From Pseudacidovorax sp. RU35E (GTDB taxonomy: Bacteria > Pseudomonadota > Gammaproteobacteria > Burkholderiales > Burkholderiaceae_C), in the NCBI RefSeq assembly GCF_900156165.1, contig NZ_FTMY01000009.1, positions 186,001 to 250,000 of the forward strand: DNA of 64,000 nucleotides, written 5' to 3'. Position 1 is the stretch's first letter. Each line of letters begins with the position of its first letter. A program made the translations under genes and the position numbers. Under the pieces are notes generated by a model that was given only the letters and a program-made list of their open reading frames with translations, had not been told where the DNA came from and did no database searches. This document shows positions 20,415 through 30,906 of this stretch, piece by piece.

Positions 20415-21698
20415 CTATCTGCCGCGCGGCGGCATGAAGGATGTGCTGTCGGGGCGTCCTTCGACGAAGAGCCGAGACGTCGCCGCCGGGGATGTCGCCA
20501 GCAGCCTGCCCTTGCGATAGACCGCAAGCCGTGCGGCACGCAGGCGGATCGCCTCCACCGGGTCGCGCGCCTGCAGCAGCACGAAGCTCGCGTCGCAGCC
20601 CGGCGCGATGCCGTAGCCGGGCAGGTGCATGAGCCGCGCCGCATTCGTGGTCACGGCCTCGAAGCACTGCTGGATGCCGGTCTGGCTGGTCATCTGGGCC
20701 ACATGCAGGCCCATGTGGGCCACCTCCAGCATGTCGCCCGAGCCCATGCCGTACCACGGGTCCATCACGCAGTCGTGGCCGAAGGCGACGTTCACGCCGG
20801 CGGCCATCAGCTCGGGCACGCGGGTCATCCCGCGGCGTTTGGGGTAACTGTCGTGGCGGCCCTGCAGCGTGATGTTGATCAGCGGGTTGGCGATGACGCT
20901 CACGCCTGCCTCGGCGATGAGCGGCAGCAGCTTGCTGACGTAGTAGTTGTCCATGCTGTGCATGGAGGTGCAGTGCGAGCCGGTGACGCGGCCCTGCAGT
21001 CCCAGGCGCTGGGCGTGGAAGGCGAGCGTCTCGATGTGGCGCGACAGCGGATCGTCCGATTCGTCGCAGTGCATGTCGACCAGCTTGCCTTCCTCGGCGG
21101 CGATCTCGCACAGCAGGCGCACGCTCTCGGCGCCATCGGCCATGGTGCGCTCGAAATGCGGAATGCCGCCCACGATGTCCACGCCCTTGCGCAGCGCGCG
21201 ACGCAGGCTGTCGACGCCGCCGGCCGTGCGCAGCACGCCGTCCTGCGGAAAGGCCACCAGTTGCAGGTCGATGTAGGGCGCGACGCGGCGCTTGACCTCC
21301 AGCAGCGCATCGACGGCCAGCAGGCTGGGGTCGCTGGTGTCCACATGGCTGCGGATGGCCAGCAGGCCCCGGGCCACGGCCCAGTCGCAGTAGGCCAGGG
21401 CGCGTTCGATCAGCGCCTCGGCCGTCAGCAGCGGCTTGAGCTCGCCCCACAGCGCGATGCCTTCGAGCAGCGTGCCGCTCTGGTTGACGCGCGGCAGGCC
21501 GTAGCTGAGCGTGGCGTCCATGTGGAAGTGCGGGTCGCAGAACGGGGGCGCCACCAGCAGGCCGTCGGCATCGAGCGTCTCGTGCGCCGGCGCGTCGAGG
21601 CCGGTCGACACTTCGACGACGCGGCCGTCCTGGACGGCGATGGACTGGCCGGTGCGGCCGTCGGGCAGGGTGGCGTGGGTGATGAGCAGGTCGAGCAT
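20415..21698 (-). CDS. Cytosine deaminase-like amidohydrolase
   Basis: Metal-dependent amidohydrolase, closest in motif pattern to CodA (cytosine to uracil plus ammonia). 427 residues, normal for CodA. Metal ligands: HFHMD near residue 57, GSHCTSMHSMD, and GHDCVMDPWYGMGSGDMLEV, which matches the CodA GHDxxxDPWYPLG block with its catalytic Asp. Other substrates are possible (isoguanine, creatinine-like imino compounds). Last gene of the transporter operon; uracil made here would feed the Upp/URC genes of the same block. Confidence 0.85.
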   Translation of the reverse strand: MLDLLITHATLPDGRTGQSIAVQDGRVVEVSTGLDAPAHETLDADGLLVAPPFCDPHFHMDATLSYGLPRVNQSGTLLEGIALWGELKPLLTAEALIERALAYCDWAVARGLLAIRSHVDTSDPSLLAVDALLEVKRRVAPYIDLQLVAFPQDGVLRTAGGVDSLRRALRKGVDIVGGIPHFERTMADGAESVRLLCEIAAEEGKLVDMHCDESDDPLSRHIETLAFHAQRLGLQGRVTGSHCTSMHSMDNYYVSKLLPLIAEAGVSVIANPLINITLQGRHDSYPKRRGMTRVPELMAAGVNVAFGHDCVMDPWYGMGSGDMLEVAHMGLHVAQMTSQTGIQQCFEAVTTNAARLMHLPGYGIAPGCDASFVLLQARDPVEAIRLRAARLAVYRKGRLLATSPAATSRLFVEGRPDSTSFMPPRGR

Positions 21699-21756
21699 GG
21701 CGGGATGGTCGAAGTCGTGGCGGGAGCATACGGGGCGACGTCCGCTGAACGCCTTG

Positions 21757-28306: not shown

Positions 28307-29629
28307 TCAGAACACCGTGCCGTCGCTCTCGATGCGAAGGGGCGGCAAGCCACCGCGCAGACGCTGGGCCACGGCCCTGCCTGCGGCCCAGGTGCCGCCT
28401 TCGAGGATGCAGGCCAGCGGCATCTCCTCGGCGCTGCGGCCAGCATGACGGCGCACGATGGATGCCAGCTCGTCCAGCAGCGCCACCGTCAGCGCGCGCC
28501 ATTCGACGATGAACTCGTCGCCCGGCTGCCAGCTGCGTTCGAGCAGCGCTGGATCACGTGGAACGATGACGCCCGTGTCCAGCAGCAGGCCGCCATTGCG
28601 GTACTCGGGCAGGGCGGTAAGGGCATCCAGCCCCTCGACCTTCACGCCCGCCCACTCGAAGGGCTCGATCAGTGAGTAGGTGAGCCATTGCGACAGTTTG
28701 TGGAAGGGCACCCAGCCATGGGTGCGGCCTTCGCCGCCGACACCACTGTGCGCCCAGCAGTCGCCCAGGGCCAGCGCCGGCTCGCCCGGGCCGGGCAGGG
28801 CGGTGGGCTGCCGGTGCAGGTAGTTGGCTGACGGCCAGATGGCCGAGAGCGAGTCCAGCAGCAGCGTGAGGATGTCGTGAACCTGCACCGTTGCCGTGGG
28901 CGGCACGGCCACGCCTTCGGGCGCGATGAGCATGTCGAACAGGCCGCCCGGCCGCTGCACCTCGGTGCCGAAGACGGCCGGCTGCTCGGCCAGCACCTCG
29001 CCCAGACGGCGCAGCAGCGTGACCCGGCCGTCCAGGCCGACGAGCGGGTTGTCGCTGTGCACCTGGAAGGCCTGCGCCAGGCGGTCGGCGACCAGGCCGC
29101 GCAGCCCGGCCGCGTCGGCCTGCAAGGGGCGTTCGGGGTCGGAAGAGAAAAGCCCCGTCTTGAAGGCATGGAAGCTGGCCACGCCGAGGCCTTCGGAGCG
29201 GGTGAAGCGCTGGTCGGACGCGGACTCGTGGTAGGCCCAGTCCGCCCCGGCGCCGGCGTCGAGCAGTACGCTCACCACGGCCAGGTCGATGCGCGCCTTG
29301 GCCTTCTCGCGGGGTGTCGCCTGCTCGCCCAGCAGCTGATCGAGTTCGGCCGCCCGGTCGACGCCGCCGGCCTCGAAATGCCGCCAGCGGCTGTGGTAAG
29401 GGATCGGCCGCCAGGCGTAGCGCGCCTGGGTGGCCTGGGCCACTTCACGCGCGGCGTCGTCCAGCTTGGTCTCATCACCGATGGTGAAGAAGGCCGAGTC
29501 GCCACGGCGGGCGCGGTCCAGCAGTTCGGCCGCACGCTCGCGCACGGCGACCGTCGTGCGCAGCCAGGCAACGGCGGCCTCGGGTTGGTTGAGGTCGGTG
29601 GCGGGAAGCACGTGTTGGCTGTCCGTCAT
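28307..29629 (-). CDS. URC4/urg3 family protein (DUF1688)
   Basis: 440 residues, full length for the family. Recognised from blocks such as IPYHSRWRHFEAGGVDR, ARIDLAVVSVLLDAGAGADW, EGLGVASFHAFKTGLFSSDP and FHKLSQWLTYSLIEPFEWAG. In yeasts URC4 is required for uracil catabolism and ribosylurea builds up in its absence, so a step acting on ribosylurea is probable. No standard catalytic fold is evident by eye. Overlaps URC1 by 4 bases (ATGA); upp follows after 50 bases. Confidence 0.9.
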   Translation of the reverse strand: MTDSQHVLPATDLNQPEAAVAWLRTTVAVRERAAELLDRARRGDSAFFTIGDETKLDDAAREVAQATQARYAWRPIPYHSRWRHFEAGGVDRAAELDQLLGEQATPREKAKARIDLAVVSVLLDAGAGADWAYHESASDQRFTRSEGLGVASFHAFKTGLFSSDPERPLQADAAGLRGLVADRLAQAFQVHSDNPLVGLDGRVTLLRRLGEVLAEQPAVFGTEVQRPGGLFDMLIAPEGVAVPPTATVQVHDILTLLLDSLSAIWPSANYLHRQPTALPGPGEPALALGDCWAHSGVGGEGRTHGWVPFHKLSQWLTYSLIEPFEWAGVKVEGLDALTALPEYRNGGLLLDTGVIVPRDPALLERSWQPGDEFIVEWRALTVALLDELASIVRRHAGRSAEEMPLACILEGGTWAAGRAVAQRLRGGLPPLRIESDGTVF

Positions 29630-30906
29630 TCGCCCAGCTCCCGTCCACGGGTGGCCTTGAGTTCATCGGCGCCGGGCACCTTGCCGGGCGTGAAATAGCC
29701 GGCGGCCATCTTGGCGTCGATCTCGACGCGCGCATCCGCGGGGATCAGATCGTCGGGGATGTTGACGCGCACGCCCACCTCGATGCCGGATCCGGTGATG
29801 GCGTCGTATTTCATGTTGCTCATGGACACGAGGCGATGGATCTTGCGGATGCCCAGCCAGTGCAGCACGTCGGGCATCAGCTCCTGGAAGCGCATGTCCT
29901 GCACGCCGGCCACGCATTCGGTGCGGGCGAAGTACTGGTCGGCGGTGTCGCCGCCCAGTTGGCGCTTGCGCGCGTTGTAGACCAGGAACTTGGTCACCTC
30001 GCCCAACGCGCGGCCTTCCTTGCGCGCATAGGAGATGAGGCCCACGCCGCCGCGCTGCGCGCCCTGGATGCACTCCTCGATGGCATGCGTGAGGTAGGGG
30101 CGGCAGGTGCAGATGTCGGAGCCGAACACGTCCGAGCCATTGCACTCGTCGTGCACGCGGGCGGTGAGCTCGACCTCGGGGTTGGCCAGGTCGCGCGGGT
30201 TGCCGAAGATGTAGATCGTCTGCCCGCCGATGGGTGGCAGGAAGACCTCCAGATCCGAACGCGTGACGAGTTCGGGGTACATGCCGCCCGTTTCCTCGAA
30301 GAGCACGCGCCGCAGGTCGGTCTCGGAGCATCCGAAGCGCTTGGCCACACCCGGCAGCCACCACACGGGTTCGATGGCCGCCTTGGTGACCAGCGCCGCG
30401 CCACCGGCGGTGAGGAACTTGCCGTCGGCCTTCAGGCGGCCCTTCTGCAGCGCATCGATCACCTCCGGCAGGATCACGTGCGCCTTGGTCACGGCGATGG
30501 TGGGGCGGATGTCGTAGCCCGCAGCCAGCTCCTGCGCGAACACGTCGGAGACGACGGCCCCCCAGGGGTCCATCGAGACGATCTTTCCCGGCTCGCTCCA
30601 TTGCGGATAGGGCCCGATGACGTCCGTCGGCGAAGTGTTGGTGAGGTCGGCGCGGTGCTCACGCTTGAGCGCGCCGGCGGCCACGGCCAGCGCCCGGTAC
30701 ACGCTGTAGCTGCCGCTGTGGGTGCCGATCACATTGCGATGCGCCCGCTTCGTCGTCGTGCCGACAACGGGGCCGCGCTCGGAAGGGGTGGCCGCGTCCC
30801 AGCGGATGGGGAGGGAGCCGAGCCCGCCGGCGTGGGAGGTCAGGCGGATGTGGTGGCGGGCGGAGGGGCAGGTGGCAGGGGGAGACGTGGTGCTGTCAAC
30901 AGACAT
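29626..30906 (-). CDS. URC1/urg1-type GTP cyclohydrolase II-like protein
   Basis: 426 residues, about twice the length of RibA. The C-terminal half is GTP cyclohydrolase II-like: zinc cysteines in VHDECNGSDVFGSDICTCRP, the phosphate/active-site segment ISYARKEGRALGEVTKFLVY, and VQDMRFQELMPDVLHWLGI. The family's usual EGRGIGL reads EGRALGE and the terminal NNPxK reads SNMKYD, differences shared by the URC1 group rather than RibA. The N-terminal extension (THSGSYSVYRALAVAAGALK; DPWGAVVSDVFAQELAAGYD) is URC1-specific. Predicted to act on UMP-derived pyrimidine in uracil catabolism, not riboflavin synthesis. GAGGG precedes the ATG. Confidence 0.9.
   Translation of the reverse strand: MSVDSTTSPPATCPSARHHIRLTSHAGGLGSLPIRWDAATPSERGPVVGTTTKRAHRNVIGTHSGSYSVYRALAVAAGALKREHRADLTNTSPTDVIGPYPQWSEPGKIVSMDPWGAVVSDVFAQELAAGYDIRPTIAVTKAHVILPEVIDALQKGRLKADGKFLTAGGAALVTKAAIEPVWWLPGVAKRFGCSETDLRRVLFEETGGMYPELVTRSDLEVFLPPIGGQTIYIFGNPRDLANPEVELTARVHDECNGSDVFGSDICTCRPYLTHAIEECIQGAQRGGVGLISYARKEGRALGEVTKFLVYNARKRQLGGDTADQYFARTECVAGVQDMRFQELMPDVLHWLGIRKIHRLVSMSNMKYDAITGSGIEVGVRVNIPDDLIPADARVEIDAKMAAGYFTPGKVPGADELKATRGRELGE

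Follow-up and report, generated by a model that had tools for sequence, protein, structure and literature searches.

On the minus strand of a 64,000-nt stretch of Pseudacidovorax sp. RU35E DNA (contig NZ_FTMY01000009.1; hereafter the window), positions 20415-30906 hold a block of genes that begins with URC1, URC4 and a uracil phosphoribosyltransferase gene (upp; protein UPP), the core set of the URC route of uracil catabolism. The block is probably a bacterial URC operon in which URC4 acts as a ribosylurea N-ribosidase and a urease takes the nitrogen. Pfam places URC4 in DUF1688 (2.8e-143) and lists its function as unknown. We consider it likely that URC4/DUF1688 and Qng1/DUF2419 (PF10343) make up one ribonucleotide N-glycosidase superfamily, in which URC4 would free urea from ribosylurea-5'-phosphate with a Lys/Glu pair in place of the Lys/Asp pair of Qng1.

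The motifs of URC4 bear some resemblance to those of DUF2419, which was noted ahead of the structural work. A first AlphaFold2 model of URC4, made with 11 sequences (predicted local distance difference test (pLDDT) 89.4, predicted template modelling score 0.90), was compared with the PDB in Foldseek. The search gave 178 matches at E<=10, and the 11 matches at E<=0.001 were all DUF2419/Qng1 chains. The best of them had E 1.6e-9 and TMt 0.76, and the match that followed the 11 had E 0.35. A second model, of an actinobacterial URC4 (35 of 91 URC4 sequences aligned, pLDDT 93.3), returned the same 11 of 11 DUF2419 chains at E<=0.001, the best with E 6.2e-10 and the next match with 0.75. In both models the predicted fold of URC4 is that of Qng1/PF10343. 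A viral structure library yielded 0 of 84 matches to the URC4 model at E<=0.001. The DNA glycosylases Mag2, mOGG1 and Mag1 matched URC4 at E 2.2 to 3.9, which is not significant and gives a hint at most of an older glycosylase origin.

The sequence evidence for the relationship is weaker than the structural evidence, yet independent of it. A Qng1 profile was built from five proteins found with PF10343 in 198 genomes of the actinobacterial phylum (six matches; the sub-cut-off match L111 was dropped). PF10343 was matched in none of 200 genomes of the window's phylum and in none of 10 actinobacterial URC genomes. Alignment of the URC4 and Qng1 profiles with hhalign gave E 3.6e-4 and a probability of 37 percent over 269 columns, and with 54 of the 91 URC4 sequences E 5.6e-4 and 30 percent over 267 columns. 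None of 100 column shuffles reached the score of 37.2 (top 24.2), reversed alignments scored 17.2 and 15.9, and a control alignment with URC1 gave E 0.11. By Pfam's rule URC4 lies outside PF10343; it is a distant homologue.

Solved mutant chains of Qng1 carry D231N (7ulc) within the motif FADY and K199C (7u5a) within YKRAQ. In the hhalign alignment D231 is paired with E342 of URC4 (LPEY) and K199 with K311 (FHKLSQ); the Lys is conserved, and Glu takes the place of the Asp. The motif EYRNGG is present in 91/91 URC4 sequences and HK[LIV][ST]Q in 90/91, and the spacing between the Lys and Glu motifs is 31 residues in 90/90 URC4 sequences versus 32 in Qng1. URC4 and Qng1 share the fold, the positions and spacing of the K and D/E motifs and, presumably, a ribonucleotide N-glycoside as substrate. 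URC4 differs in having about 100 extra residues and a different presumed leaving group (urea).

In the proposed pathway, cytosine would be deaminated to uracil by a CodA-type deaminase and uracil converted to UMP by UPP; after phosphorylation, URC1 would open the ring, leaving urea on the ribose. URC4 would then hydrolyse the N-glycosidic bond of ribosylurea, probably as the 5'-phosphate, to urea and ribose (phosphate), in the manner of Qng1 on queuosine-5'-monophosphate, and a urease encoded elsewhere in the genome would take the nitrogen. A BMP-ABC (ATP-binding cassette) importer, a lipoprotein nucleosidase and the cytosine deaminase would form a feeding module present in part of the relatives. 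For yeast, a passage of PMC7530994 has URC1/URC6 giving 3-hydroxypropionate and ribosylurea and URC4 taking ribosylurea to urea. This last step is an N-glycosidic hydrolysis and therefore belongs to the reaction class of Qng1, which is why URC4 fits it. Qng1 acts on a 5'-monophosphate, being called queuosine-5'-monophosphate nucleosidase in the title of a paper, and by analogy ribosylurea-5'-phosphate would be the substrate of URC4. While the fold, the profile match and the two aligned residues were computed here, the reaction of URC4 is one that we infer.

Several observations weigh against this assignment. The hhalign probability is only 30-37 percent. When PDB sequences were searched twice with a URC4 profile, DUF2419 chains were missing from the matches up to E 10 both times (one search gave a single unrelated match with E 1.1, the other none). 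The Pfam Q_salvage profile matched only 1 of 11 URC4 members, at E 0.087 and 12.8 bits versus a cut-off of 25. The Foldseek alignments with DUF2419 have a root-mean-square deviation of 4.4-5.7 Å at 14-20 percent identity, the Asp of Qng1 is replaced by Glu, and one URC4 sequence (L040) lacks the HK[LIV][ST]Q motif. URC4 could have the Qng1 fold and another job; it might, for instance, assist URC1 in a way that depends on a 5'-phosphate, or be a glycosidase that acts on a different nucleotide. The distance of the match and the Glu at the position of the catalytic Asp would suit such a role, as would the overlap and near-constant pairing of the URC1 and URC4 genes. We nevertheless regard it as improbable, since both aligned residues are conserved in URC4 and PMC7530994, in the passage cited, sets URC4 at an N-glycosidic cleavage. 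URC4 as a ribosylurea N-ribosidase that probably works like Qng1 is the reading we prefer. A literature search, with thin coverage of subscription papers, found no mention of a link between URC4 and Qng1.

The genes were named by Pfam and NCBIfam profile matches against curated cut-offs, and each gene named in the first-pass annotation was found as an open frame in its place on the minus strand. In the order of transcription (30906 to 20415) the block comprises:

29626-30906, minus strand: URC1, 426 aa; NCBIfam name GTP cyclohydrolase II, proposed UTP cyclohydrolase; PRK07198 797 bits, cut-off 403
28307-29629, minus strand: URC4 (DUF1688), 440 aa; Qng1 fold, candidate N-ribosidase for ribosylurea or its 5'-phosphate; K311/E342 align with Qng1 K199/D231
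27621-28256, minus strand: uracil phosphoribosyltransferase (upp), 211 aa; TIGR01091 273 bits, cut-off 208
27239-27620, minus strand: gap of 382 bases that separates UPP from BMP and contains a REP-like palindrome
26240-27238, minus strand: BMP/PnrA-type substrate-binding protein, 332 aa; start picked by signal peptide; Bmp 1.4e-40
25306-26226, minus strand: lipoprotein (LAGC) nucleosidase of the methylthioadenosine/S-adenosylhomocysteine (MTA/SAH) nucleosidase type, 306 aa; PNP_UDP_1 4.7e-43
23744-25318, minus strand: ATPase of the ABC transporter, carrying two ABC domains; the ATG at 25318 was taken as start by eye
22677-23747, minus strand: ABC permease 1; BPD_transp_2
21757-22680, minus strand: ABC permease 2; BPD_transp_2
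20415-21698, minus strand: cytosine deaminase (CodA type), 427 aa; PRK07572 791.5 bits, cut-off 438

The frames of URC1 and URC4 share 4 bases, and a spacer of 50 bases separates URC4 from upp. The genes from BMP through the permeases are joined by short gaps or overlaps, and the deaminase gene is preceded by a gap of 58 bases. The REP-like palindrome in this gap lies around GAGCCTGTCGAAG between UPP and BMP. Upstream of URC1 (30907-31000), inspection by eye revealed a conserved promoter-like region in which TTGCCA-N17-TACATT resembles a sigma-70 promoter and is accompanied by a TTTTTGAGGGCCTGCA leader; the 8-mers TTTTTGAG and CTTGCCAG recur 5' of URC1 in 27 and 22, respectively, of 57 Pseudomonadota loci, the window among them. 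An ExaC-type acetaldehyde dehydrogenase gene (18643-20157; 950 bits, cut-off 900) lies downstream of the block. It was rejected as a member of the operon, being found near URC in just 2 of 58 Pseudomonadota loci.

Among 300 genomes of the order, DUF1688 was matched in 12 and above the cut-off in 11; the sub-threshold match (G260/L025) was excluded from all counts. A scan of genome contigs gave at least 588 stretches with DUF1688, at least 568 of them confirmed, of which the best 80 were kept, a choice biased to close relatives. These 80 of 568 scan matches, mainly from Comamonadaceae and Mycobacteriales, and 10 other loci form a set of 90 loci. Neighbouring genes were called by tblastn (E<=1e-15, coverage of at least half), and taxon groups were taken from record titles. 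The closest among the matches listed is Pseudacidovorax intermedius DSM 21352, with 95 percent in URC4. In 89 of the 90 loci URC1 directly precedes URC4 on one strand, and UPP is present in 84, so the order URC1-URC4-UPP is beyond chance. Four of the six loci lacking UPP (L035, L059, L061, L101) stop at most 0.3 kb past URC4; L017 and L040 do not. Of the 39 Pseudomonadota loci that extend 9 kb or more past URC4, 26 matched BMP, 25 the ATPase and permeases, 32 the cytosine deaminase and 13 the nucleosidase, while importer, deaminase and nucleosidase were found in none of the 26 actinobacterial loci with the same room. Near the actinobacterial URC genes, a TenA-like gene was noted in 9 loci and an isocitrate-lyase-like gene in 5 (named by eye; e.g. 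L102:14620-15348 and L097:7587-9872). URC4 is also present in 13 plasmid records, nine of which name it 'URC4/urg3 family protein'. The Azospirillum argentinense plasmid p3 (NZ_CP032324.1) shows the order URC1-URC4-upp-BMP-ABC-permease-permease-amidohydrolase, with the difference that its annotation has no nucleosidase after BMP and before the ABC ATPase. The counts and this plasmid therefore indicate a core of URC1-URC4-UPP, to which importer, deaminase and nucleosidase have been added in succession.

The joint presence of URC1, URC4 and uracil phosphoribosyltransferase, all three identified by profile and kept together in most of the 90 loci, bears out the first-pass assignment to the URC pathway. 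The 'fungal-type' pathway of that annotation is no novelty in a bacterium, as PMC3869809, which reports URC1/URC4 as conserved in many bacteria, and PMC12507026 show. The block shares with the URC genes of Lachancea kluyveri and urg1-urg3 of S. pombe a GTP-cyclohydrolase-II-like protein, a DUF1688 protein and a uracil phosphoribosyltransferase, with a urea-degrading enzyme in the genome. It differs from the yeast systems as a bacterial operon with importer, nucleosidase and cytosine deaminase, in a genome with urease instead of urea amidolyase and with a Rut set elsewhere. The block is thus ordinary in kind, and what is new is the mechanism proposed for URC4.

URC1 matches GTP_CH_N (3.1e-80) and, over its full length, the solved chains 7eev and 7ej3 (E 2e-244), which are named GTP cyclohydrolase II; true RibA chains match weakly. 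Cys255, Cys266 and Cys268 are invariant in 11 of 11 members. The match to 7eev/7ej3, the weak match to RibA and the invariant Cys spacing are among the reasons why URC1 is best read as a UTP cyclohydrolase and not as the riboflavin enzyme. A UTP cyclohydrolase study is cited for the URC pathway in a passage of PMC12507026, and 7eev/7ej3 would be the entries of this enzyme.

Of the feeding module, the deaminase has E. coli-type cytosine deaminases as nearest solved chains (1r9y, E 4.5e-115), which together with PRK07572 confirms the first-pass naming as cytosine deaminase-like and specifies the CodA type. The nucleosidase aligns with MTA/SAH (purine) nucleosidases (TIGR01704 100.9 bits, cut-off 73.8; PRK05584 131, under its cut-off of 169), so that cleavage of pyrimidine nucleosides is not supported. 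A METAA...SD motif and a lipobox-like site are present in 16 of 16 orthologues and AFEPEL in 12 of 16. MTA/SAH nucleosidase is a cytoplasmic enzyme; the lipoprotein signal suggests an extracytoplasmic role here. The nearest solved relatives of the BMP protein are 3s99 (3.8e-36) and the atrazine periplasmic binding protein 6pi5 (1.8e-35), so that, on the strength of these relatives, import of bases rather than nucleosides is possible. In two loci (L051:11348-12949 and L078:11231-12865) the nucleosidase gene lies directly between UPP and the cytosine deaminase gene with no importer matched, and the nucleosidase may therefore serve URC itself. The first-pass view of a URC pathway with its own importer is overstated: the locus counts and the 382-base gap make the importer an accessory.

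Two further explanations bear on these genes. If URC1 were the riboflavin GTP cyclohydrolase II of the genome, the locus would not serve uracil catabolism. The NCBIfam equivalog name points that way, and URC1 is the only TIGR00505 (ribA) match in the window's genome, yet at 46.7 bits it falls well below the cut-off of 205.85, nearly every locus has it together with DUF1688 and upp, and PMC12507026 cites a UTP cyclohydrolase study for the URC pathway. Moreover, RibA over the cut-off is absent from 209 of the 300 order genomes, far more than the 12 of 300 with DUF1688, so that a missing RibA is not tied to URC; it is likewise absent from 6 of 6 sampled genomes of the same family that lack DUF1688. 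We hold this explanation to be very improbable and keep to UTP cyclohydrolase for URC1. Most of the 209 genomes show a weak RibA match instead, and RibBX-type fusions may supply the riboflavin precursor there. The second explanation takes BMP, ABC transporter, nucleosidase and deaminase as a separate operon for purine or triazine base uptake that merely adjoins the URC core. Here the 382-base gap, the purine type of the nucleosidase, the atrazine-binding protein as one of two nearest solved BMP relatives and the lack of an importer in all 26 actinobacterial loci long enough to show one speak in its favour. The recurrence of BMP and the deaminase in Pseudomonadota loci, the same gene order on the Azospirillum plasmid, the deaminase producing the substrate of UPP and the arrangement in L051 and L078 argue against it. 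It is unlikely, though it carries some weight, and the substrates of importer and nucleosidase, all of them inferred, count against the feeding module that we favour.

The genome search for urease that the first-pass annotation had recommended detected urease alpha in the window's genome (G000:C4:146449-146814, 1.8e-54). Of the 11 genomes with URC4 in the order sample, 10 have urease alpha, and urea carboxylase exceeds its cut-off in two (G058 and G286, the latter being the one without urease alpha); every one of the 11 thus has one or the other, a count made on URC4 genomes only. Two points detract from urease as a partner of URC. It is common in general, and a urease cluster faces the URC cluster in G002 alone (L020:11021-15868) among the 90 loci. 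Urease beside URC as a rule was accordingly rejected.

The absence of Rut and dihydropyrimidine genes described in the first-pass annotation is true of the window, RutA having no match on its contig (C11) at E<=0.001. It does not extend to the genome, where a separate cluster on contig C16 (L119:5057-8767; RutA 698.7 bits) has RutA, B, C, D and F above their curated cut-offs and two dihydropyrimidinase-type genes are likewise present outside the window. Among the 11 URC4 genomes, RutA over the cut-off was found in one and dihydropyrimidinase-type genes in six. Rut, like URC, uses uracil as a nitrogen source. URC is therefore not the only uracil route of this genome but one of at least two, which tempers the role assigned to the block.

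Some bacteria thus possess both URC and Rut genes, and it may be asked when each is used. URC is not known to need a flavin monooxygenase step, and low oxygen is therefore a possible niche for it. For URC1 the public name 'GTP cyclohydrolase II' is misleading. The URC route has reportedly been known genetically since 2008. The fold match of URC4 to a nucleotide N-glycosidase, with two active-site positions aligned, points to a class of reaction, to two residues worth mutating and to a substrate that could be synthesised. If URC4 and Qng1 do form one superfamily, the step of the URC pathway that is still uncharacterised, in fungi as in bacteria, would be accounted for.

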